From positions 1 to 40,724 of the IMG/VR virus record IMGVR_UViG_3300044591_001615: a DNA stretch of 40,724 nt; one strand, given 5' to 3'. The notes under the pieces were generated by a model. It saw only the letters and a program-made list of their open reading frames with translations, was not told where the DNA came from and ran no database searches. Numbering within the stretch: position 1 is the stretch's first letter; each line of letters starts with the position of its first letter. The stretch comes from a virus. The translations under genes were made by a program, and so were the position numbers. This document shows positions 4,600 to 40,724 of this stretch, piece by piece.

Positions 4600-5963
4600 G
4601 CCAAAAACGAATAAATCAACTGCCGGAAAACGTAAACGCGGCAAATAGTACGAATGACTACCTTGTTAGGCAAACGTGGGAGGGGCAGGGAAACCCAAAC
4701 CTTCAAACCAACACAGGGTGGAAAACTTACGTAAGCAACTTTGGCGATTTTTTTGCGGGTATACTAACCCCGCTTAACCAAGTTTTAAACTGGATTATTT
4801 CGCCGATTTCTACGGACGCGCTGAACACAGCCAGCCTTGGAAGCGACCTTAAAATATATGTACCGCCTGCGCCTGCAAACGCTGCATTCTATGCGACTAC
4901 GGCGGCTTCGGACGTGGTAGGGTACACTAAGTTAGTGATAAGCACGGTTGATCCTTCATACGATAACCCTGCCGTGGATGTAAGCACGGGTGCAATAACG
5001 GCTTTCGGCCAAGCGGCGGGCGCATTGGTCAGCGCGCCGGGCGTGTTTGTTGGAAATCCGGGTGTTGTAACAATAACGACTACGGGAGAAATACGCCGCG
5101 TAAGCGGAAGCGGCACGGCCGAGTTTTATTTTGAGGTGTACCACAGGGATGCAGGCGGAACGGAAACCTTGATAGGTACCTCCAACGTAACGCCGCCTAT
5201 TTCCACGAGCGCATACACGCAGTTTACGGCCAACTGCCTCGTAAACAACGGAGATTTTTTAGCGACAGATAGGCTGGTAATTAAGTATTTTGCCAACCGC
5301 GTGGCTGGCGGTTCAAACCCCGTCTATCAGTTTTTGTTTGGCGGTGCTAACCCTGTAACAACGCTGTTTCCTGTACCCGCTGGCGTGATTGCGCCGCCGA
5401 TTTCAAGCGACCCCGGCAATAATGCCACAATTGGTACAGATGGTAAGATATTCGTACCAACGCCTGTTATAGCACAAGACTTTGAAACCTTGGCAACCCA
5501 AAGCAGCCCTGTAACGATTAGCAATACAAGCGCGGAAACTATCTACCCCACCAACCTACTGGTGCAGGGGGCAAAAAACTTAGTTGGCGCGATGTATGAA
5601 TTGCACTTTAATTTGAGCAAGGGCGCGGCGGGGCATTCGTCTACAATCCGAATTTACATTAACACGGCAAACAACTTAACTGGAAGCCCTGTTAAGGTGC
5701 TGGAATATGGAAGCGGGTTTAACTCTAACACTTCATTCCCGTTCTTTTTTAGGTATTTCAGAAACAGCGTAGGTTTGGTTGTTCCAAGGGATGTAAATGC
5801 GGCGGGCACGGTGCTTGGCAACATAGTCACCCAATCTTTGGTTAGCACAACGCCTATAACCTTTAACCCTAACCTGACCTATTATTTCATAATTACCACG
5901 CAGATGAACGTAACAACGTCGTCCGAAACCTTACAATTCGCCAAGCTATGCCTGAACAAATAA
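4596..5963 (+). CDS. Putative tail fibre / virion decoration protein
   Basis: A 455-residue protein, Ser/Thr/Asn/Gly/Pro-rich and dominated by short beta strands, a composition typical of receptor-binding or decoration proteins. After a short N-terminal region (KRINQLPENVNAA) come at least two beta-sandwich-like segments (about residues 105-250 and 295-455) joined by Pro/Gly-rich linkers. A phrase recurs: PISTDALNTASLGSDLKIYVP near residue 70 and PISSDPGNNATIGTDGKIFVP near residue 265. This suggests an internal duplication of a linker/attachment module. No catalytic motif seen. Confidence 0.55.
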   Translation: MSQKRINQLPENVNAANSTNDYLVRQTWEGQGNPNLQTNTGWKTYVSNFGDFFAGILTPLNQVLNWIISPISTDALNTASLGSDLKIYVPPAPANAAFYATTAASDVVGYTKLVISTVDPSYDNPAVDVSTGAITAFGQAAGALVSAPGVFVGNPGVVTITTTGEIRRVSGSGTAEFYFEVYHRDAGGTETLIGTSNVTPPISTSAYTQFTANCLVNNGDFLATDRLVIKYFANRVAGGSNPVYQFLFGGANPVTTLFPVPAGVIAPPISSDPGNNATIGTDGKIFVPTPVIAQDFETLATQSSPVTISNTSAETIYPTNLLVQGAKNLVGAMYELHFNLSKGAAGHSSTIRIYINTANNLTGSPVKVLEYGSGFNSNTSFPFFFRYFRNSVGLVVPRDVNAAGTVLGNIVTQSLVSTTPITFNPNLTYYFIITTQMNVTTSSETLQFAKLCLNK

Positions 5964-7940: not shown

Positions 7941-7991
7941 GAGGTGCTTGGCTGGAGGGTTATTTTGTTTATATCTGTGTTGTCGGCAATG

Positions 7992-8270
7992 CTACAAATC
8001 TGCAAGCCTATCACAAAAAAGGTCAACTTCTTTATCCGTCATTTCAGTATTCACGTCCTCAATCACACGGCTGACAATTTTATCCCAATAAATTTCCCTG
8101 ATTTTCCAATCGGGTGTGTCGATATAATGACTATCACCGTTAGCCTTATAATGATATAACCAATAGTTAATCATATCTTCAAGTTGACCGTCCGAGAATG
8201 CGCCGCACACAACAGCACCTAAAGAAGATGGCTGGTTGTCCTTTTCTGATAAAGTTTTCTTTGTACTCAT
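7992..8270 (-). CDS. Hypothetical protein (92 aa), first gene of minus-strand cassette
   Basis: A 92-residue soluble acidic protein with no recognised domain (LEDMINYWLYHYKANGDSH, then a Trp-rich middle and an acidic C-terminal helix). It is preceded by a textbook Bacteroidota promoter on the minus strand, so it is transcribed leftwards against the tail operon. Its codons and base composition are more AT-rich than the surrounding tail genes, consistent with recent insertion. It has the features of a phage 'moron': own promoter, opposite strand, unrelated to its structural neighbours. Confidence 0.65.
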   Translation of the reverse strand: MSTKKTLSEKDNQPSSLGAVVCGAFSDGQLEDMINYWLYHYKANGDSHYIDTPDWKIREIYWDKIVSRVIEDVNTEMTDKEVDLFCDRLADL

Positions 8271-8295
8271 AATTTTGTTTCGTTTTTCGTTTAAG

Positions 8296-8326
8296 CAAAT
8301 GTATACACCCGCCCTTTCCCCTGCAA
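8296..8326 (-). promoter_or_regulatory. Promoter of minus-strand cassette
   Basis: Read leftwards: TTG (CAA at 8324-8326 on plus), a 20-nt spacer, then TACATTTG (plus 8296-8303). This is a perfect -33/-7 match. It lies 25 nt from the ATG at 8270, back to back with the tape-measure promoter box. Confidence 0.75.
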
Positions 8327-8358
8327 TAGCCCGCGCCCCATAGCGTGTTAAAAATCGT

Positions 8359-8366
8359 TAAATTTG
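8359..8366 (+). promoter_or_regulatory. TAnnTTTG box of tape measure gene
   Basis: TAAATTTG ends exactly 4 nt before ATG 8371. No TTG at the -33 distance. Likely a weak or activator-dependent leaderless promoter, divergent from the minus-strand cassette promoter. Confidence 0.45.
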
Positions 8367-8370
8367 CTTT

Positions 8371-11091
8371 ATGGCCATAGATAATATCATAGCGCGGTTT
8401 GAACTACAAACAGGACAAGCGCAAACCGAAATACGTGAATTGACCGCGCGGTTAGACGCGATGGATAAGGAGTTGAAGACCACCGCCAAGGATGGTAAAA
8501 AAGCCTTTTCGGACATTCAGCAGGGGGCGAAGCAAACGGGCGGCGCGTTTGGAAACATGAAGGCGCAGCTAACATCCTTTGCGGCAACTATGGGTGTAGC
8601 GTTTGGGGCGCAGGAAATCATACAATTTACAAAGGCCAGCATTGACGCGGCGGCGGATTTGGGGGAAACGCTCAACAAAGTGGGCGTAATCTTTGGAGAA
8701 AACGCATCGGACATTGACGCATGGGCAAGCACGGCAGCGCAAAGGCTTGGGCAAAGCAAACAGCAGGCTTTAGACGCGGCTTCCACTTTTGCGATTTTCG
8801 GAAAGAGTGCAGGAAAAACGGGCGAAGACTTGTCGGGGTTTGCAATGGAAATGACGGAACTGGCCACCGACTTATCTTCATTCCACAACACGACACCACA
8901 GGAAGCGGTAGAGGCATTGGGGGCTACCTTTAGGGGAGAAATGGAACCTATCCGTAAGTATGGGATAGTGTTGGACGATGCGACTTTGCGGCAGGAGGCT
9001 TTAAGAATGAAACTTATTCAAACCGATAAACAAGCCCTAACACCCCAGCAGAAAATTTTGGCAGCCCATGCGGCCATAATGAGAAAAACCAACTTAGAGC
9101 AGGGGGACTTTGCCAACACAGCGGACAGCCTAAGCAACAAGCAAAAGATTTTAACGGCTGAATTTGCGGATTTCCAAACCCTGTTAGGCCAAAAACTTGC
9201 ACCTACCTACGAAAAACTTGTTGATGCGGGCGGGGATTTGCTAAAAGCGTTTGATTGGGGCGCGGTGTTTGAGCAACTCATGCAGATTGCGCGGGATAAC
9301 TTTAAGCCTTTAATGGACATAGGTTCGGCATTGGGCGACCTATTCAACGCGTTTGGTAAGTCCGAGGAAGGTGGCCGTAAAATGACAGGCTTGTTTACCG
9401 TCCTTCGCGGCGTGGTTAATGCCACGCTTATTCCGCTTAAAATCATTGCGGCGGTTTTAAGGCTGTTTGTGGATAATGCAATTATTCCAGCGGTGCAAAC
9501 AGGCCAACGCCTTATAGCATGGTTTAATGAGGTGCGAGAGGGCGGGGGTTTTGTGGCAGACGTCTTTAACGTAATCGCTAAAGCGGTAGGCGGGTTGGCA
9601 CGCATGGTGGGCAGCGCGCTCGAAACCATTGGGATATTGTCTAACGATTCCAACGTGGTAGACATTGTCGGCAACCTACGTGAACAGCTTTCCAAGTTGG
9701 GTGATGAAGACCAAATCAAGCAGCTGGAGGAATGGAAAAAGCAGTTTGCCGGAAATATGCAAATGGTGCAGGTATTTGAGAATGAGATTAAGGCGGTACG
9801 GGCGCGCATGGCTAAAGCGGCGGCGCAGGCGGCAAAAGAAGAAGGAGCGGCGGTGAGTGCGGAAGCGAAGAAAGCCTACGAAGATCGCATTAAGCAGCTG
9901 GAGGATTTGGAAAAGGCCGTGCAGGATGCAAACTATGAGATACTCCAAGCCAGCCTAAGCGCACAAGAACAAGAGGAATTAGCAGTTGAGAAAAAGTACA
10001 AGGCGCAGATTGACTTAGCCAAGCAGTACGCAAACGATTCTACCGCCGAGGGGCGTAGATACGCGGCGGTCTTGGCGGCATTGCAAGAGGCTTCGGAAAC
10101 CGAAGTGTTAGAAATCCAAAAGAAGTATGCAAATCTTAAAGAATTGGCGCGTATTGAGGAGCGGAACAAGGAGCGCGAAGCCGAGAAAAAGCGGGCGGCG
10201 GAACGGATGGAGTTTTTAAATAGCCAAGAGGAACAAGAGGTTGTGGCGTATGACGAAGCGGCAAATAAATTACTTGACCAATATAACCGCCGGATAATTA
10301 GCCATGAGGAGTTCCTTAATGCTATGGCCAAACTCGACGAAGACTACCAAGTTAAGGCAAAAGACGCGGCACAAAAACTTGAAGAGCAACGGCAAAAGGA
10401 CATTGAGCAGCGTGAACAAACCATTGTCCAAAGCGTTCAGCTATTCGGCGAAACGCTCACTAATATCATGTCCATAACAGGGCGAAACAGCGCGGCATTT
10501 GCGGAATTTCAAAAGTTTGTTGGGCTTGCTGAAATTGCGGTATCACAGGGCGTGGCAATTGCTAAGGCTATCAGGGTTATTGCGGGCACGGCGGTTACAC
10601 CCATTGACCTTATCGCAAACATTGCGATTATTACGGCTTCCTTGACTTCGATTTTTGCGGGGCTTGCACAAGCGGTTGGCCAATCGCAGACACCCGAAGT
10701 ACCGGAGTTTGAAAGTTACAACACGGGAACGCCATATTTGGAGCGTGGCAGCAACCCGCGCGGCATAGACACCATACCCATTATGGCGAATGAGGGGGAG
10801 GCGATTATCCCAACCGCCGAAAACGCGAAGCACCCCGGACTTGCACGGGCGTGGATTAACGGAAACTTGGATGACTATATCTTCAGAAACTACGTTATCC
10901 CACAACTGGAGGAACAGGCAGCAAGCGCAGCGGCAGCACGCATGGAGGCCTTTGGTATCACGGGGCAAAACGTAGCCGGATTCGATGACTTTAGGTTGTT
11001 CACACAAGCGCGCAGGCAGACGGGGGCATTGGAGGCGATTGTGGAAAACACCAACCCCAAGCGGCAAAGCAGGAAGCGTTATTATTCGTAA
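8371..11091 (+). CDS. Tail tape measure protein
   Basis: 906 residues, the longest gene in the genome. The N-terminus is helical and coiled-coil (MAIDNIIARFELQTGQAQTE), followed by the conserved tape-measure region with the GVIFGENASDIDAW, AMEMTELATDLSSFHNTTP and EALGATFRGEMEPIRKYGI stretches. Hydrophobic, probably membrane-active segments follow (about residues 345-430), then long charged coiled coil (about 470-690), hydrophobic Ala/Ile-rich helices (about 720-770) and a C-terminal globular part. At about 0.15 nm per residue it predicts a tail near 135 nm, so a long non-contractile tail. It sets tail length and helps DNA entry. Confidence 0.9.
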   Translation: MAIDNIIARFELQTGQAQTEIRELTARLDAMDKELKTTAKDGKKAFSDIQQGAKQTGGAFGNMKAQLTSFAATMGVAFGAQEIIQFTKASIDAAADLGETLNKVGVIFGENASDIDAWASTAAQRLGQSKQQALDAASTFAIFGKSAGKTGEDLSGFAMEMTELATDLSSFHNTTPQEAVEALGATFRGEMEPIRKYGIVLDDATLRQEALRMKLIQTDKQALTPQQKILAAHAAIMRKTNLEQGDFANTADSLSNKQKILTAEFADFQTLLGQKLAPTYEKLVDAGGDLLKAFDWGAVFEQLMQIARDNFKPLMDIGSALGDLFNAFGKSEEGGRKMTGLFTVLRGVVNATLIPLKIIAAVLRLFVDNAIIPAVQTGQRLIAWFNEVREGGGFVADVFNVIAKAVGGLARMVGSALETIGILSNDSNVVDIVGNLREQLSKLGDEDQIKQLEEWKKQFAGNMQMVQVFENEIKAVRARMAKAAAQAAKEEGAAVSAEAKKAYEDRIKQLEDLEKAVQDANYEILQASLSAQEQEELAVEKKYKAQIDLAKQYANDSTAEGRRYAAVLAALQEASETEVLEIQKKYANLKELARIEERNKEREAEKKRAAERMEFLNSQEEQEVVAYDEAANKLLDQYNRRIISHEEFLNAMAKLDEDYQVKAKDAAQKLEEQRQKDIEQREQTIVQSVQLFGETLTNIMSITGRNSAAFAEFQKFVGLAEIAVSQGVAIAKAIRVIAGTAVTPIDLIANIAIITASLTSIFAGLAQAVGQSQTPEVPEFESYNTGTPYLERGSNPRGIDTIPIMANEGEAIIPTAENAKHPGLARAWINGNLDDYIFRNYVIPQLEEQAASAAAARMEAFGITGQNVAGFDDFRLFTQARRQTGALEAIVENTNPKRQSRKRYYS

Positions 11092-30161: not shown

Positions 30162-30694
30162 TCACTACCGAAATCCAAAAACTACCGGACGCTGCCGCTG
30201 CCACACAAGCCATGCAGCAACTCGATGAACTCTTAACCATGCTGGGGGAGCAACCAGACAAGCGGTTTATTAAGACCAACAAATACGCCAACAACGCCGA
30301 ATATTTGCCAATAGGCTACATTGAGGCAAAACTCGACCAAATCTTTAGAGGCTTATGGAAGTTGGAAATCGTAAACCAGCAACAAGTGGCCAATGGCTAT
30401 GTCGTTTCCGTACGCTTGTCCGTTTACAATTGGGTAGCAAACCTTTGGTTAGTCCGCGACGGCATCGGGGCAAAAGCCTTTGAAATGGAAAAAGGAGCGC
30501 ACCCGACCGACTTTACCAAAATTAACGCCAAAGGCATCGAAAAAATCGTACCTATTGCCAAAGCGGAAGCATTCAAAAACGCGGTGAAGTCCTTAGGCAA
30601 TATTTTTGGGCGAAACCTCAACCGAGAATTTAAGCACGGACACGCACCCGACAAGCGCGTGAAGGAAATTATTGAAGGGCCTATTAATGCGTAA
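30158..30694 (+). CDS. Rad52-like single-strand annealing protein
   Basis: 178 residues. The core matches the Rad52/22 annealing family: YLPIGYIEAKLDQIFRGLW, a beta strand VSVRLSVYNW, RDGIGAK, and the AKAEAFKNAVKSLGNIFGR helix at about residues 134-152. Such proteins form rings on single-stranded DNA and anneal complementary strands. The next gene encodes a nuclease, giving the usual annealing protein-nuclease recombination pair. Coupled by ATGA to the HTH gene. Confidence 0.75.
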   Translation: MITTEIQKLPDAAAATQAMQQLDELLTMLGEQPDKRFIKTNKYANNAEYLPIGYIEAKLDQIFRGLWKLEIVNQQQVANGYVVSVRLSVYNWVANLWLVRDGIGAKAFEMEKGAHPTDFTKINAKGIEKIVPIAKAEAFKNAVKSLGNIFGRNLNREFKHGHAPDKRVKEIIEGPINA

Positions 30695-30704
30695 TACCAC
30701 AACC

Positions 30705-31454
30705 ATGAACCTATCACAATCCGCCGTTAAAACTTGGGAAGCGGCAACCCAAACAACCCCAGAGGGCGTAAACCACTACCAATCCCCCGCGTGCAAGCAC
30801 TACTGGAAACTCATCTACATTGACGGCAACGAAACGCCGCCAAGCGATGCGCAGTTACTCGGCCAAGTTTTCGAGTATAAACTCACAGGACAAAAAACGC
30901 TACACGGGCAAACCCCCGAACTGCCTAAACTTAAAAAAGGCAAGCCCTGCGAAAAAGAACGCCTTATTATTGAACGCGTGGAAGCTACCAAAGCATTTTT
31001 GGAGCATCATGGCATCGTGCTGCGAAACGGCAGCGTTTTCATAAAAGACGGCATCACCGGACACATTGACGCCGAAAGCGAAGTAGACGGCAAACCCGCC
31101 ATTATTGACATCAAGTTTACCGAAACCAAAGAGGATGACAAATGGCACGGCTGGGGGGATATGGATAAAATAGACCTCTTGCAGCCCGCCACCTACGTTT
31201 GGGGAATGGGGCTACCATACCGCCGTTTTTATTACCTAATTGTTGGTAAAACATGGCTTAGGCTGGTGCAGGTGCTACTTACACAAGCAGACCTTGAAGA
31301 TATGCACGCGCGGTTTGCGGCCGTGCGCGAAGCCGTAGCCCAAGCAGACTTCTCCCCAACACCAACGTGGAAAAATTGCAAGTCCTGCAAGCTGGCGGAC
31401 ATCTGCCAACACGCGGTGAAGTTTCCGGAAATAGAAACATATCAAAGAGGATAA
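30705..31454 (+). CDS. PD-(D/E)xK nuclease with probable Fe-S cluster (Cas4/AddB-like)
   Basis: 249 residues. The nuclease core is visible: TGHIDAESE (His120, Asp122), IIDIKFT with Asp135 and Lys137, and a later Gln160. Four cysteines, Cys30, Cys225, Cys228 and Cys234, follow the spacing of the Fe-S cluster of Cas4 and AddB (one N-terminal, three near the C-terminus in CKSCKLADIC). This family trims DNA ends. Start ATG 30705 (MNLSQSAVKTWE) is preferred over 30687 as it begins the domain directly. Paired with the annealing protein, it likely serves phage recombination. Confidence 0.75.
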   Translation: MNLSQSAVKTWEAATQTTPEGVNHYQSPACKHYWKLIYIDGNETPPSDAQLLGQVFEYKLTGQKTLHGQTPELPKLKKGKPCEKERLIIERVEATKAFLEHHGIVLRNGSVFIKDGITGHIDAESEVDGKPAIIDIKFTETKEDDKWHGWGDMDKIDLLQPATYVWGMGLPYRRFYYLIVGKTWLRLVQVLLTQADLEDMHARFAAVREAVAQADFSPTPTWKNCKSCKLADICQHAVKFPEIETYQRG

Positions 31455-31457
31455 AAC

Positions 31458-32141
31458 ATGAGTATAAAAAATAAATATCAAGTCAAGCCCATTGCATCAT
31501 ATTTATGCAAAGAGTGGATTTTGAAAAAACATTATGCTAAAAGAATACCTCCCATTGAATATGCCTTTGGTTTATTTAATTGTAATGGAGTAATGAATGG
31601 AATTGTAACTTATGGCACTCCTGTTAGTAGCACTTTAAGAGACTTATGGAAAGGAGAATTTAAACTTATTGAGTTGAATCGCCTTGTTATTAATGAGGGA
31701 CTTGAAAAAAATGTGCTTTCTTTTTTGGTCAGTCAATCATTACGCAATCTTTCAAGCCCGTTAGTTGTTGCATCTTATGCAGACACATCTCAAAATCATA
31801 ACGGATACATATATCAGGCTACAAATTGGATGTACACAGGTTTATCATTACCTTTTAAAGATTATTATATAAAAGGTATGGAGCATCTTCACAATGGAAC
31901 AATAATGGATATGAGCAGGGGGCAAGAAAACAGGGTGCAATGGTTAAGAGAAAAGTTTGGAGATAATTTGATAATGATTGATAGGCCAAGAAAGCACCGA
32001 TATTTCTATTTTATTGGAAACAAAAAAGAGATAAAGAAAATGAAAAGCATGATGCCATACGATGTAATTCCATATCCCAAAGGTGAAAATAAGCGATACG
32101 ATGCAAGTTATACTCCTTCAACACAAATGCAATTATTTTAA
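31458..32141 (+). CDS. Mom-like DNA modification protein with C-terminal clamp-binding motif
   Basis: 227 residues. The sequence resembles the Mom family (N6-adenine carbamoylmethylation-type modification; GNAT fold): HYAKRIPPIEYAFGL, IVTYGTPVSSTLRDLW, ELNRLVINEG, and SYADTSQNHNGYIYQATNW. In phage Mu, Mom modifies DNA and blocks restriction. The DNA is clearly AT-rich (about one third G+C by eye, versus around half in the neighbours), suggesting a recent import; the Mu gene is AT-rich too. The protein ends exactly in QMQLF, a QxxLF beta-clamp-binding pentapeptide. A clamp homologue lies at 36467. Confidence 0.65.
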   Translation: MSIKNKYQVKPIASYLCKEWILKKHYAKRIPPIEYAFGLFNCNGVMNGIVTYGTPVSSTLRDLWKGEFKLIELNRLVINEGLEKNVLSFLVSQSLRNLSSPLVVASYADTSQNHNGYIYQATNWMYTGLSLPFKDYYIKGMEHLHNGTIMDMSRGQENRVQWLREKFGDNLIMIDRPRKHRYFYFIGNKKEIKKMKSMMPYDVIPYPKGENKRYDASYTPSTQMQLF

Positions 32142-32146
32142 GCATA

Positions 32147-33535
32147 ATGCTTTTTGACTACCAAACAAAGGCGGTTAGCGACACCCGCGCCGCCTTTTTA
32201 AACCACCGAAGGGTCATACTAACCATGCCAACTGGCAGCGGCAAAACCTATACCGCCGCCACAATGGTTAAGGCAGCAGCCGAAAAAGGTCGCGCCCTTA
32301 TGTGGGTGGCACACCGGAACGAACTACTTGACCAAGCGCGCGCCTCACTCGCAAACGTAGGCGCACCGCCCGAAATTTGCACAAGCATACAAAAGTGGAA
32401 CAGATCCGGCGGACGCATCAAACGACCAGACTTCATCGTTATAGACGAAGCCCACTTAAGCATCGCCGACACCTACAAAAAGCTAATCGAAGCCTACCCC
32501 AAAGCCTATGTGCTGGGGCTTACCGCCACGCCATACCGCTTAGACGCGCAGGGGCTGGGCGAAATCTACGACACTATTGTGGAAGGTCCCGCTACCCAAC
32601 ACCTCATAGACATCGGCAGGCTATCCCCGCCAATGTACCGCGTACCCTCGCAGCTGAATTTCGCCGAACTAAAAAAAGCTGGCCGCGACTTCGACCCGCG
32701 CCAAATGGCCGCAATGTGGGATAAGGCTAAAGTATTTGCAGGCGTAGTAAGAAACTTCACGCAAATGTGCGCAGAGGCCAAAGCAATAGCGTTTTCATCT
32801 AGCGTGGAGCAGTCCCAAAAGTTAGTAAATGAATTTGCAGCGGCTGGTTACATCGCCGCCCACGTAGACGCCGAAACGCCACCAAAAGAACGTGCAAGGC
32901 TGTTAGACCTTTTCCGCAAAGGGCAAATCCAAATACTATGCAATGTGGCTTTATTTACAGAGGGCTACGACCTACCCGACATTCAATGCGTAATCCTTAA
33001 CCGCGCTACACTATCCCGCGCCCTATATATGCAAATGGTTGGCAGGGGCGGCCGTTCCGCGCCCGGCAAAACAGGCTTTTGGGTTTTGGACTTTGGGGGC
33101 AACGTCCTGCGGCATGGCAGGTGGGAATCCCCCGTAGAGTTTAACCTTGACGGCACGCCGCCAGCACCCAGCGAAGGGGTCGCACCCATGAAGGTGTGTA
33201 AATCATGCTTTATTATAAACCCCATCCAAGCCAAAGTTTGCACCGCTTGTGGTTGGGTTTTTCCCACACACACGGGCAACGCCGAAGAAACTGAACTTGT
33301 TTCTTTGGATGACCGCCCAAGTGTCTTAGAATTTGTCGAAATTTGCAATTCCGCCACCGCCCAAATGCGACCCGAAGCAGCAGCCCATAGGCTCGCATCC
33401 GTAGCCGAAAACCCCGCCGAATACCGAAAGGCTTTGCAGCAGCTGGCTACCATGCGGGGATATTCCGCAGGTTGGGTGTGGCGGACGCAAAAGAATATCC
33501 CTTGGAAAGGCAAGGAAAAAATTATTAATGAGTAA
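32147..33535 (+). CDS. SF2 DEAH-box helicase
   Basis: 462 residues. Motif I TMPTGSGKT (residues 26-34), motif II DEAH (100-103), motif III TATP (126-129) and motif VI QMVGRGGR (296-303) are intact. A four-Cys zinc ribbon follows (Cys351, Cys354, Cys365, Cys368). It is a superfamily 2 helicase of the XPB/SSL2 or type I-restriction type, probably acting in replication or recombination. It begins 5 nt after the Mom-like gene. Confidence 0.85.
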   Translation: MLFDYQTKAVSDTRAAFLNHRRVILTMPTGSGKTYTAATMVKAAAEKGRALMWVAHRNELLDQARASLANVGAPPEICTSIQKWNRSGGRIKRPDFIVIDEAHLSIADTYKKLIEAYPKAYVLGLTATPYRLDAQGLGEIYDTIVEGPATQHLIDIGRLSPPMYRVPSQLNFAELKKAGRDFDPRQMAAMWDKAKVFAGVVRNFTQMCAEAKAIAFSSSVEQSQKLVNEFAAAGYIAAHVDAETPPKERARLLDLFRKGQIQILCNVALFTEGYDLPDIQCVILNRATLSRALYMQMVGRGGRSAPGKTGFWVLDFGGNVLRHGRWESPVEFNLDGTPPAPSEGVAPMKVCKSCFIINPIQAKVCTACGWVFPTHTGNAEETELVSLDDRPSVLEFVEICNSATAQMRPEAAAHRLASVAENPAEYRKALQQLATMRGYSAGWVWRTQKNIPWKGKEKIINE

Positions 33536-33555
33536 ACAATAACGCCGAAGCAACC

Positions 33556-35841
33556 ATGAACTTCAACCTATCTTTTTACCCTAACGTGCGCGCTCCTAAG
33601 CCGTCGCACAACATGACCTTCGAGGACTTTATTGATAATGTCCAAGCCAACCCAGAGTGGCAGGAAGCCGCAGAGCAAATCCAAGCCATAAGCGACAAGG
33701 CAGAACGCCGCGAAGCCAAAACCAAACTGCCCGGCGTACGCCTCTCGGGTACGTTTTCCGGCCAAAGCGATGACAGCATCATTACCAAGTCCGGCCTAAT
33801 TGGCATGGACATAGACGACTTCTCCGGCGACCTACAACTTTTAAAAGAACAGCTTTGCCATGATCAATTTGTAGCGGGTGCGTTTTTTAGCGTTTCCGGA
33901 AATGGCTTATGCGCTGTTTTCCGGATAACTACGGACGACTACGCCGAAGCATACATTCAAATATCGGCTTACCTAAGGAAAGAATACAACATCACCTGCG
34001 ACCCCGCGTGTAAAAACATTTCCCGCTTCCGCTTTATTACCCATGATACCCTCCCATACATCAACCTCAACGCCGTTGTTTTCGACATCAAGCCGCCCAA
34101 AAACCAAAAGAAAGCGGATTTTGTGCCATACTCGAAGGACAGCGACGTGGAGTACATCATAGGCCAAATCCAAAATTTAGGCATTGACATCACCACCTCC
34201 TACGAAGATTGGCTTAAAGTTGGGTTTGCCATAGCTGACGAGTACGGCGAAAATGGCCGGAACTTTTACCACATCCTTTCCCAAAACCACCCGGAGTACA
34301 ACGAAAACACAACCAACAAAAAGTACGACTCCCTCTTACGCGGTCGCAATTCGTCTAAACGCGTATCAATTCGTTCACTTTTTTACATCGCAGCACAACA
34401 CGGCATTCGCACCGTGTCCCCCGAACGCGCCATGATTGACGCACAAGCCCAGCGTGTTTCCAAAACCACCAACACCACACAAGACCTCGTAGGCTCGCTC
34501 GCTGCCGTGGGCGTAAACATTTCAGAAGATAATGCCAAAATAGCACTCGAAGCCGCCAAAACATCCAAGGTGTCCGGCAACGCTATGGACTTAATTGGCC
34601 AGTTTATTATTTCCAACTTCGACCTATACCGCAACGGCGTAACCCAGCGCATTTATTGCAAGGCAGACCCGCTGCACCACAAATTCATAGGGGAACAGGA
34701 AATTAACTCCATGTTTGTCCGCCTTAAGCAAATTGAACCAAAGGTTAAAATCCAAGACATTAAAGCCTACATCAACTCTGAAAACACGCCAACCTTTCAC
34801 CCGTTTGCGGACTTTATCGCCGAGAAACAAGGTTACGAAGGAAAAGACGTGGTAGCCCAGCTTATTGACTGCATTAAGGTTGAGGAGGATAAAGCATACG
34901 GCACAACGTGCCAGCATGGCATTTACAAACAGGTGTTCCTGCGTAAGTGGCTTTTAGGCGTGGTCGGCTCTATGCAAGGCCACCACAACGAACTTATGCC
35001 TATCCTTTGCGGGGCTGGCGGCATAGGTAAGACCGTTTTCGTACGGGAACTTTTACCAAAATCCATGCGCTATCTTTTCGGAAGCGGCATCATTGGAATG
35101 GGTAAAGATGACCAAATGAAAATGAATGAGTTTCTTATCCTTTTGGATGACGAATTTTCCGGAAAAACCACCCGCGACTTTAAGACGCTTAAGCAGGTGC
35201 TGTCCTTAGATTACGTTACCATTCGCCTACCATACGCTGCCACCACCGAGAAGCTCCAGCGCATCGCCTCTTGGATTGGAACATCAAACGAAACGCAAAT
35301 CATTGACGACCCCACTGGAAACCGCCGCTTTGTACCCATGACCATAACTGAAATTGACCAAAAAGGCATGGAAAAAATAGACCGCGAAGCCCTTTGGTCG
35401 CAGCTTGTTACCGAATATACGAAAGCAGACACCGAGGAACTACGCAAACCCCACCACCTTACACGCGAGGAAATGAAGTTTCTTAACATGGTTTCCGCCG
35501 CATACGCCGTTACATCAGCTGCCCAAGACCTTGTTTCCTTAATCGTAGACCTCCCGCAAATCGGGCAAAAAGTGGAGTATCTTTCCTCATCCGAAATCCT
35601 CGCACTCATGAAAATGAAGTACCGCGTTGATCAAGTCAACCCCCAGCAAATTGGGCGCGTGCTAACATCTTTAGGCTTTGAGCAAAACCTAAAGCGTACC
35701 GGAACAATGGTAAAGCGTATGTGGAAGGTGTCTTTGGTAAACACCGCCGACCTTGGTTTAATTGGCCGAGAAGTAGCGTTGCCCGGTTTAACACCCTATA
35801 ACACTTTAACTAACGAAGATTTTTTAACTTTACCGAATTAA
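33556..35841 (+). CDS. Primase-helicase: BT4734-like primase N-terminus, PriCT-2 and VirE-type ATPase
   Basis: 761 residues in three parts. Residues 1-180: a BT4734-like archaeo-eukaryotic primase domain with MDIDDF (Asp85, Asp87) and SVSGNGL. Residues 195-285: a PriCT-2-like linker (EDWLKVGFAIADEYG). Residues 370-640: a VirE-type P-loop ATPase with Walker A GAGGIGKT (486-493) and Walker B LILLDDE (527-533), followed by the TSNETQIIDDPTGNRRF sensor region. Such fusions prime and unwind DNA at the phage origin. No polymerase gene was found, so it likely feeds the host replisome. Confidence 0.85.
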   Translation: MNFNLSFYPNVRAPKPSHNMTFEDFIDNVQANPEWQEAAEQIQAISDKAERREAKTKLPGVRLSGTFSGQSDDSIITKSGLIGMDIDDFSGDLQLLKEQLCHDQFVAGAFFSVSGNGLCAVFRITTDDYAEAYIQISAYLRKEYNITCDPACKNISRFRFITHDTLPYINLNAVVFDIKPPKNQKKADFVPYSKDSDVEYIIGQIQNLGIDITTSYEDWLKVGFAIADEYGENGRNFYHILSQNHPEYNENTTNKKYDSLLRGRNSSKRVSIRSLFYIAAQHGIRTVSPERAMIDAQAQRVSKTTNTTQDLVGSLAAVGVNISEDNAKIALEAAKTSKVSGNAMDLIGQFIISNFDLYRNGVTQRIYCKADPLHHKFIGEQEINSMFVRLKQIEPKVKIQDIKAYINSENTPTFHPFADFIAEKQGYEGKDVVAQLIDCIKVEEDKAYGTTCQHGIYKQVFLRKWLLGVVGSMQGHHNELMPILCGAGGIGKTVFVRELLPKSMRYLFGSGIIGMGKDDQMKMNEFLILLDDEFSGKTTRDFKTLKQVLSLDYVTIRLPYAATTEKLQRIASWIGTSNETQIIDDPTGNRRFVPMTITEIDQKGMEKIDREALWSQLVTEYTKADTEELRKPHHLTREEMKFLNMVSAAYAVTSAAQDLVSLIVDLPQIGQKVEYLSSSEILALMKMKYRVDQVNPQQIGRVLTSLGFEQNLKRTGTMVKRMWKVSLVNTADLGLIGREVALPGLTPYNTLTNEDFLTLPN

Positions 35842-35845
35842 ACGC

Positions 35846-36463
35846 ATGGAAACGAACACACCAATATCCGAAGCCTACAACATGGACTGCATGGAGTTAA
35901 TGGCTCAATATCCTGATAACTATTTTGATTTAGCCGTGGTTGACCCGCCGTATGGGATAGACAGAAATGGTATGACTATGGGTAACTCTGTTTTTAACAA
36001 AGACAATAAGTTATGGGATAAACAATCACCAAACGCAAATTATTTTAATGAATTGTTTAGGGTTTCTAAAAATCAAATAATTTGGGGCGGAAATAATTTT
36101 GTATTACCTCCTTCGCAATATTTCGCGATTTGGGATAAGGGTGAAACTATGTATGCGCGCGATTTTGCAGAGTGCGAGTATGCTTGGGTAAGAAGCGGCG
36201 GCACACGCATATTAAAAAAATCGCCCAACCAGTCCAACCGCATCCACCCAACTCAAAAACCCGTAGCCCTTTACGACTGGATTTTTCACAACTACGCAAA
36301 GCCAACGGACAAGATTTTGGACACCCATTTGGGCAGCGGCAGCAGCCGCATTGCCGCCTACAAAAACAAACTGCACTTCGTTTCCTGCGAACTTGACCAA
36401 GAATACTTCCAAGCCCAAGAAAAAAGGTTTGCTAACTTTAAATCACAATTAACACTTTTCTGA
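35846..36463 (+). CDS. DNA N6-adenine/N4-cytosine methyltransferase with clamp-binding motif
   Basis: 205 residues. The catalytic DPPY motif is at residues 33-36 and the SAM-binding motif follows later in DTHLGSGSS (160-168), the order of beta-class MTases. A target recognition region lies between. The first half of the gene (to about 36130) is strongly AT-rich (one 60-nt line has about 27% G+C) while the second half is near the genome average, a mosaic joint. The protein ends exactly in QLTLF, a near-ideal beta-clamp-binding pentapeptide; the clamp gene begins 4 nt later. Target sequence unknown; no restriction partner. Confidence 0.85.
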   Translation: METNTPISEAYNMDCMELMAQYPDNYFDLAVVDPPYGIDRNGMTMGNSVFNKDNKLWDKQSPNANYFNELFRVSKNQIIWGGNNFVLPPSQYFAIWDKGETMYARDFAECEYAWVRSGGTRILKKSPNQSNRIHPTQKPVALYDWIFHNYAKPTDKILDTHLGSGSSRIAAYKNKLHFVSCELDQEYFQAQEKRFANFKSQLTLF

Positions 36464-36466
36464 ACC

Positions 36467-37465
36467 ATGAACACCACCACCGACATCACCAGCCTACTAT
36501 CAAACGTAGCCAAGGCAGCCGCCCCAACAACCATCCCCTCAACCCAAAACCTTTGCTTCCGAAATAACCAAGTGGAGGCAACCGACCTGCAAACGCACAT
36601 TGTCGCGCCGCTGCCCAGCGAGCTGAACTGCCAAGTAAACGCTTCCGCGCTAATCGCGGCACTTAAGCAAATCGAAAACCCAACCATCACCCAGCATGAG
36701 GGCTACATCCTCTTAAAAACCGCCAAGGGTAAATACAAAATGCCGTGCTACCCAGCGGACGAGTTTCCAGCTGCACCTTCCGTACAGGGTCAACCCCTTC
36801 AAGTGTCTTCGGAAGTTTTCGCATCCGCCATGCAGTATTGCTCCAACATGGTGGGCAAGGATGACCTGCGCCCCGTCATGTCCGGCATATACTTCGGCGA
36901 AAACGAAATCGCTGCCACCGACGCCACCCGCCTCGGGAAAATTAGCCAAGAACAGCCCCTTTCCGGCATCATTCTACCCGTTAAGCCTATCCGCTTAACC
37001 CAAGACTTTATCCGCTCAAATTTCGCTGTTACCCAGTCAGACAACCACATCAAAATAGAAGCATTTAACGCGACCATCTACGCGCGGTTAATCTCAGGTA
37101 ACTACCCGAAATACCAAGCCGTGTTCCCCTCACACCATGCCGAGTTCCAAGCGGACGCCGTCGAACTTTCAACAGCTATTCGCCGACTGCTTCCGTATGC
37201 CAATAACTCAACCAGCCTCATTATTTTTGACTTTGAGAAACAATGCCTAACCGCGTTTGACATCGACCTTAACAAAGAGGCAAGCGAAGCCTTCCCGCTA
37301 CCTTCGTCCGCCAAGCAAATCGGCGTTAATGGCCGTTTTCTTTCCGACATCCTGCGCACCATCGAAACGCCCAGCATCACCATAGCCCACGGCGAGCCAA
37401 ACCGCCCCATCATTATTAAATCCAAAAACGCAGAGTTTCTTTTAATGCCTATAATTTTACAATAA
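36467..37465 (+). CDS. DNA sliding clamp (DnaN-like)
   Basis: 332 residues with beta-clamp hallmarks: LRPVMSGIYF (residues 134-143), ATDATRLGK, GNYPKYQAVFP (211-221), NGRFLSDIL (288-296) and a terminal FLLMPI. It is about 30 residues shorter than the usual 366. Clamps encircle DNA and tether polymerases and other enzymes through QxxLF peptides. No phage polymerase is encoded, so it may recruit the host polymerase III, or serve the two phage modification enzymes that carry the motif. Last gene of the early operon. Confidence 0.8.
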   Translation: MNTTTDITSLLSNVAKAAAPTTIPSTQNLCFRNNQVEATDLQTHIVAPLPSELNCQVNASALIAALKQIENPTITQHEGYILLKTAKGKYKMPCYPADEFPAAPSVQGQPLQVSSEVFASAMQYCSNMVGKDDLRPVMSGIYFGENEIAATDATRLGKISQEQPLSGIILPVKPIRLTQDFIRSNFAVTQSDNHIKIEAFNATIYARLISGNYPKYQAVFPSHHAEFQADAVELSTAIRRLLPYANNSTSLIIFDFEKQCLTAFDIDLNKEASEAFPLPSSAKQIGVNGRFLSDILRTIETPSITIAHGEPNRPIIIKSKNAEFLLMPIILQ

Positions 37466-39899: not shown

Positions 39900-40244
39900 A
39901 TGAAAAGGCAAGAAGACCACATCCAAGCGGAAATAGTTAAGTGGTGGCAGACCACCTACCCAGCGAGAGCAGCTGACCTTATCCACATCCCAAATGAGGG
40001 CAAAAGGAGCGCACAGGAGGCAGGAAGAATGGCGGCCTTAGGGTTGATGCCCGGCGCACCCGATTTAATCGTGCACATCGGCTTTAACCACTTCGTGCCG
40101 ATTGAGGTGAAAGCACCGGGCGGGAGGCTATCCCAAAGTCAAAAAAACTTAAATCACCATTGGGGGGCGCGTGGAACTCAAATCCACGTCGTATATTCGT
40201 TAGAGGATTTTCAAAAAGTCATATCCCCATGGATGAAGAAATAA
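39900..40244 (+). CDS. VRR-NUC domain nuclease (complete copy)
   Basis: 114 residues, a minimal stand-alone VRR-NUC: an N-terminal helix (EDHIQAEIVKWWQTTYPARA), then GAPDLIV with Asp55, PIEVKAPGG with Glu69 and Lys71, and the Gln-containing QSQKNL helix. The PD-(D/E)xK residues are all present. It is likely a structure-specific nuclease resolving branched DNA. First gene after the candidate origin. It is the same gene as the truncated copy at 1-204. A TTATCCACA (DnaA-box-like) string lies inside at 39979-39987 but is explained by its codons. Confidence 0.85.
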   Translation: MKRQEDHIQAEIVKWWQTTYPARAADLIHIPNEGKRSAQEAGRMAALGLMPGAPDLIVHIGFNHFVPIEVKAPGGRLSQSQKNLNHHWGARGTQIHVVYSLEDFQKVISPWMKK

Positions 40245-40450
40245 GCGTTGAAGCCTACCAAAAGGGTTTAAGAAACATCGAGGCGATGGAGTTTGAGCGA
40301 TGGTACAGGGTAAGCGAACCGGAGATAGATTCGGCCATGAGGCACGCGCAGGAAACGGGGGTGCTTGCTCACGCAGGCTTCATGCTGGAATGGAATTTCA
40401 AAGAAACCTTGGTCAGGAAAGTAAAAAACCTTAACTTTGTTTCCAACTAA
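40229..40450 (+). CDS. Small hypothetical protein, second version (73 aa)
   Basis: Same gene as 189-410 in a diverged form. It starts at ATG 40229 within the end of the nuclease gene. Silent changes dominate (for example the codons of the AYQKGLRNI stretch), and the conserved C-terminal 38 residues (AMRHAQETGVLAHAGFMLEW onward) are unchanged, indicating selection on the protein. Function unknown. Confidence 0.7.
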   Translation: MDEEISVEAYQKGLRNIEAMEFERWYRVSEPEIDSAMRHAQETGVLAHAGFMLEWNFKETLVRKVKNLNFVSN

Positions 40451-40471
40451 TAAACCGAAACACACGAAATC

Positions 40472-40724
40472 ATGGCAAAAATGTACTGCGGGCAAGCCGC
40501 AATCAGACAAACGAAAATTGGTCAAGTGGTCAGCATTGAACTGGACTTGACCGATTTAAGGGCAATTTTGGGAGAGGCCGCACAAGGCCAAAGTGAGGCA
40601 CAAATCCGCGAATGGACGGACAAAGGTGGAGTAGTACACAAGACCATTAAACTCGAAGCTGTCCCAATGAAAGAGCCGGGCAAGTACAGCACTCACACGA
40701 TTAAGCTAAACACTTACGTCAAGG
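40472..40724 (+). CDS. SSB-like protein, second version (cut by window end)
   Basis: The same gene as 430-792, truncated by the window edge after 84 codons. It differs from the other copy at a few residues (ELDLTDLRAILG versus ELDLTELRVILG) and at silent sites. The 2-nt insertion upstream (CACACG versus CACG) places any earlier start out of frame and confirms ATG 40472. The acidic tip lies beyond the window. Confidence 0.75.
   Translation, partial: MAKMYCGQAAIRQTKIGQVVSIELDLTDLRAILGEAAQGQSEAQIREWTDKGGVVHKTIKLEAVPMKEPGKYSTHTIKLNTYVK

Follow-up and report, generated by a model that had tools for sequence, protein, structure and literature searches.

The question raised by this locus is why two DNA-modifying enzymes of one phage should end in nearly the same five residues, and whether the sliding-clamp homologue encoded beside one of them has anything to do with it. 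The window, by which I mean the whole stretch of 40,724 nt that was analyzed (IMG/VR record IMGVR_UViG_3300044591_001615), appears to be a nearly complete genome of about 40 kb, since its two ends (1 to 682 and 40041 to 40724) overlap over 687 nt at 93% identity. The ends differ within the overlap and may represent two strain variants that were joined. The features at issue are as follows:

30672 to 31454, + strand: PD-(D/E)XK nuclease, the 5' neighbor of the Mom-like gene (PF12705; sibling synteny)
31458 to 32141, + strand: Mom-like DNA modification protein with a GNAT-like fold, 227 aa (PF25680, E 1.6e-33; PHROG 1384, E 4e-50; PDB 8bv8; S124; GC 32.5%)
32124 to 32138, + strand: QMQLF, the C-terminal clamp-binding-like pentapeptide of the Mom-like protein (translation; conservation in the Mom clade)
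32147 to 33535, + strand: DEAD/ResIII-type helicase in the interval between Mom and primase (PF04851, PHROG 16)
33556 to 35841, + strand: primase-helicase of the VapE/PriCT_2 type, 5' of the methyltransferase (PF05272, PF08707; sibling synteny)
35846 to 36463, + strand: solitary class-beta N6/N4 DNA methyltransferase with a DPPY motif, 205 aa (PF01555, PHROG 67)
36446 to 36460, + strand: QLTLF, the C-terminal clamp-binding-like pentapeptide of the methyltransferase (translation; near-invariant glutamine in 36 relatives; column entropies)
36467 to 37465, + strand: phage homologue of the beta sliding clamp (PHROG 947, E 3e-53; PDB 8dt6, E 2e-17; pocket residues kept)

The two tails are present as described in an earlier, sequence-only reading of this DNA: the Mom-like protein ends in PSTQMQLF and the methyltransferase in FKSQLTLF, and the clamp gene begins 3 nt after the methyltransferase stop (a gap previously given as 4 nt). 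Both pentapeptides match the consensus for binding the beta clamp, as had been proposed, fitting the form Q-phi-x-[LM]-[FL], of which Q-phi-x-[LM]-x-[FL] is the six-residue counterpart (PMC11139829). The bacterial motif QL[SD]LF, known from Pol II, Pol IV, Hda and others, has the same pentapeptide consensus and often lies at the extreme C-terminus (PMC11139829), but the bearers known from that review are replication and repair proteins, whereas here they are modification enzymes. No methyltransferase, transposase or modification enzyme was found in the text of that review. The statement that no other replication-type protein of the phage ends in such a motif was borne out for the window, and a scan of its proteins found no internal clamp motif in the helicase, the primase, the nucleases or the clamp.

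The best match in the PDB to the predicted model of the Mom-like protein is Mom of phage Mu (8bv8, E 7e-11), and the position corresponding to Mu S124, the serine that is mutated in the structure of inactive Mu Mom, is serine in all 22 aligned relatives. By profile, fold, and conserved serine, the protein is thus assigned to the Mom family. It shares with Mu Mom its fold, its family and S124, but Mu Mom ends in VQPYPK, with no clamp-like tail, and the gene in the window lies amongst replication genes, a position that fits expression together with replication. The methyltransferase (with DPPYG and THLGSGSS motifs in its translation) is solitary, in that its neighbors are the primase and the clamp and no cognate restriction enzyme adjoins it, judging by profile matches.

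The clamp homologue also matches all three clamp domains (PF00712, PF02767, and PF02768), more weakly, the last with a score of 23.5 bits where its cut-off is 27. The pocket that receives clamp-binding peptides is identical to that of E. coli DnaN at R152, T172, R176, L177, P242, V247, N320, M362, and P363, conservatively changed at L155, Y323, and V360, and different at G174, H175, R246, and S346. Compared with DnaN from two Bacteroidota, the phage clamp is 25% to 27% identical overall but matches at some two thirds of the pocket positions that were compared, and the substitutions L155M, Y323F, V344N, and V360L are common to all three. To judge from these residues, the phage clamp could still bind the tails. 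A fusion of methyltransferase and clamp by in-frame read-through was considered and set aside, the two-residue linker being judged too short to allow the tail to reach the pocket in cis. Among the PHROG matches in the window there is neither a DNA polymerase nor a clamp loader, so the loading and function of the phage clamp would rely on replication proteins of the host.

Are the tails conserved? Relatives of the methyltransferase scoring above 120 bits in IMG/VR number 144, of which 84 end in strict QxxL[FW] (as does about 58% of the family at 90% redundancy) and 131 end in some motif-like form, and the glutamine is nearly invariant among 36 of the relatives. Within the 46 non-redundant tails of relatives that end in [LMI][FW], the entropies of the Q, L, and F columns are 0.45, 0.68, and 0.35 bits, as compared to 2.2 and 3.1 bits for the two residues between them and 2.4 to 3.2 bits for the seven positions preceding the glutamine. 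The earlier reading asked whether the motif is conserved in homologues, and among these relatives it is: Q, L, and F are kept while their neighbors vary. A control sample of PF01555 proteins from bacterial genomes, drawn from the order of a Runella genome (an order of probable hosts) and consisting mostly of other subfamilies unmatched by ancestry, numbers 24 proteins, of which 3 have a comparable tail and none has the strict form.

Other arrangements occur at methyltransferase ends. One from a phage of 107 kb that encodes a clamp (L120:8001-8651) ends in the six-residue form QLQLDF, and a tandem pair (L103:7318-7995 and 7944-8666) carries a couple of motif-like peptides close to the end of each member, QTNLF followed by QIKIF or QLQIF.

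The pattern in the Mom clade is looser. The strict form is found in 65 of 131 distinct tails (and in about 42% of the Mom set at 90% redundancy), the others being hexameric, near matches, or extended by one residue, and a glutamine followed by a hydrophobic residue (Q..[hydrophobic]) lies within the last 14 residues of 84 of 99 non-redundant members, six-residue forms included. At 50% redundancy the strict tail remains in only 4 of 26 Mom clusters, because distant branches such as those of Mu and A511 have no tail, and it follows that the tail is not required for Mom activity in general. Nor is an origin ancestral to all Mom proteins supported, since those of Mu, A511, Riggi, PM87, JeffCo, EauM-23, and CRP-902 do without it. 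The clamp-like tail is thus the property of one Mom branch. In many Mom tails the second residue is not aliphatic (QGVLF, QTTLF), a suboptimal match for E. coli beta.

Chance does not account for the tails when they are set against the background of viral open reading frames, which has strict QxxL[FW] C-termini in 1 of 1,916 gene clusters (frames of at least 100 aa) and in 4 of 2,518 frames of at least 70 aa. The probability of two strict tails arising by luck among some 55 genes is about 0.0004 to 0.004, even before requiring that both belong to modification enzymes. The background screen turned up few tailed genes beyond Mom and the methyltransferase, two of which are C5-cytosine methyltransferases (PF00145). 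Of 77 distinct tails from relatives of one such phage enzyme, 75 have the motif, in forms such as QTELF, QLEMF, and QTSIFDE; the relatives are close to one another and are counted here as a single lineage. About 20 loci carry two of the three enzyme families together, often with both tailed.

The peptide might instead belong to the enzyme itself, serving to cap a helix, to dimerize or as a stability tag. There are signs of this in the AlphaFold model of the methyltransferase, where the last helix runs on into QLTL with moderate confidence (pLDDT about 79), so that this tail may not be freely disordered, and in the Mom clade, where the linker is also fairly conserved. The last 17 or so residues of the Mom model are low-confidence coil (pLDDT 52 to 56). 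Against a structural or stabilizing role, the same peptide sits on the unrelated folds of GNAT-like Mom, class-beta methyltransferases, and C5 methyltransferases, and five- and six-residue forms alternate, as they do in clamp motifs. The motif moreover persists despite short C-terminal extensions (QTSIFDE, QGVLFT), as it should in a docking peptide but not in a tag read through its free carboxylate. I regard the structural explanation as very improbable. Since Mom and the methyltransferases have unrelated folds, their common peptide is most simply attributed to convergence.

Two side observations concern neighboring genes. Adjoining methyltransferase and Mom genes (L047:3996-4637 and 4641-5270) are identical over their last 21 nt (tail QLRIPC), which suggests that the tail of one gene was copied into the other. 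Elsewhere, a small winged-helix (HTH_39) protein encoded directly 5' of Mom (L161:1424-1738) also ends in LQLKLF.

The arrangement of the window makes it tempting to suppose that the tails evolved alongside the phage clamp in order to bind it, the three genes constituting a dedicated module, as the sequence-only reading had it. All three lie in one replication cluster, the clamp almost abuts the methyltransferase, and the pocket of the phage clamp is intact. The relatives of the phage tell a different story. Five siblings have clamps 91% to 93% identical to that in the window and near-identical neighboring genes but neither Mom nor methyltransferase: in those with both flanks present the clamp comes directly after the primase, and in the two inspected at the level of bases the helicase comes directly after the nuclease. 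The GC content of Mom (32.5%) and, to a lesser extent, of the methyltransferase (41.7%) departs from that of the window (47.9%); Mom, AT-rich and compositionally foreign, looks like recent cargo. The retention of the clamp by siblings without the enzymes, together with the GC content, indicates that the enzymes are accessory cargo, and on this comparison the adjacency of methyltransferase and clamp is incidental. The earlier reading would have counted against itself any homologues that lack the pentapeptide in phages that keep the clamp. A sibling (L003) comes close to this, with a different methyltransferase in the same cluster, between helicase and primase, that ends in APTLFSTL, without glutamine.

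A second test comes from the distribution of clamps. The PHROG 947 profile, which recovers a clamp from 13 of 14 control genomes, finds one in 4 of 48 long records, two of them siblings of the window phage, and in 3 of 40 further records. Many of these records are fragments, and absence from them is weaker evidence. That limit does not apply to the complete genomes of Flavobacterium stinky9-1, Cellulophaga Nekkels_2, Tetrasphaera TJE1, and Streptococcus Javan139, in which PHROG 947 detects no clamp and which carry motif-bearing methyltransferases; their hosts come from three phyla. The proposed co-occurrence of tail and phage clamp is thus not seen in most tail-bearing phages. As a general partner of the tails the phage clamp is ruled out by the siblings and the clamp searches together, and a module dedicated to it, as an evolutionary claim, is largely refuted and improbable.

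If not the phage clamp, then the clamp of the host is the more likely usual partner, to judge from these distributions. A whole-genome scan with the methyltransferase matched only four cellular records, and from the nearest of these and from the named phages I infer that the host belongs to the Bacteroidota. The Y-family polymerases (Pol IV) of the host order end in QLTLNF, QLTLDF, QLSLEF, QLQLFG, and QMGIF, which places docking peptides of this type in the probable hosts themselves.

The same resemblance to Pol IV would serve a quite different function, in which the tails occupy the host clamp to shut off host replication or to keep repair polymerases away, and do nothing to aid modification. 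Clamp-binding inhibitors do exist, the Caulobacter toxin SocB for example, and there are phage-encoded inhibitors of DnaN. Clamp inhibitors are usually small dedicated proteins, while the tail is found on DNA-modifying enzymes of three kinds and seldom on the other genes of phages (1 of 1,916 background gene clusters), and for these reasons a blocking function seems unlikely.

There remains docking in aid of modification. The sequences show conserved tails that have converged in unrelated families of enzymes, a clamp pocket that is preserved, and an absence of linkage between the tails and a phage clamp, and the explanation that best accommodates these findings is that the tails are, quite probably, beta-clamp-binding motifs that dock both enzymes on a sliding clamp and so couple modification to replication. 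That part of the earlier proposal, the tethering, survives on the strength of the conserved tails and preserved pockets, while its dedicated system of clamp, Mom, and methyltransferase does not, given siblings that keep the clamp without the enzymes, tails in phages in which no clamp is detected, and a compositionally foreign Mom. In the docking scheme, the tails of the Mom-like protein and the methyltransferase would enter the hydrophobic pocket of a sliding clamp of the bacterial type. In most phages carrying these families that clamp would be host DnaN; in the window phage it may be that of the host, that of the phage, or both. Enzymes so docked would stay on freshly copied phage DNA, and bases would be modified during or just after replication, before restriction enzymes of the host could cut. 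The physical binding, the timing of modification, and the protection from restriction are what I infer.

Partial precedents exist. In eukaryotes, a short peptide brings the DNA methyltransferase DNMT1 to the sliding clamp PCNA, where new DNA is methylated (PMC9690074), but through a PCNA-binding motif and PCNA in place of Q-x-x-L-F and beta, in the maintenance methylation of a host and not in a phage. Transposases of several families are mobile-element enzymes that contact the host clamp (PMC4549789), but they relocate DNA and leave its bases unmodified. The plasmid methyltransferases M.EcoGIX and M.BceJIII likewise belong to mobile elements and work with host replication proteins (PMC7736820), but the partner found was DNA polymerase I, and the link to the clamp was merely suggested. 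An open-access library, as distinct from subscription journals and preprints, yielded no account of phage methyltransferases or Mom proteins that bind the clamp. The class of motif and its analogues are already known, and the apparently new part is the presence of such tails on phage modification enzymes.

If the docking explanation is true, it would explain how Mom and the solitary methyltransferases of phages might modify newly made genomes fast enough to escape restriction, it would provide a bacterial counterpart to the link between DNMT1 and PCNA, and a C-terminal QxxLF would be a simple sign by which to find more replication-coupled modification enzymes. Extended to phages generally, the evidence leans towards a common strategy in which Mom, class-beta methyltransferases, and C5 methyltransferases would have independently gained clamp-binding C-termini and ride the host clamp.

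The siblings of the window phage offer two further observations. The methyltransferase of L003 (4875-5690), with its relatives L467-L546, represents a different family within PF01555 with a conserved C-terminal xPTL[FW] that has no glutamine. This end is possibly a variant docking tail, and the family was left out of the count of tailed families. Another sibling has a PAPS-reductase-like gene 3' of the clamp region (L005:10240-11127) that is absent from the window.
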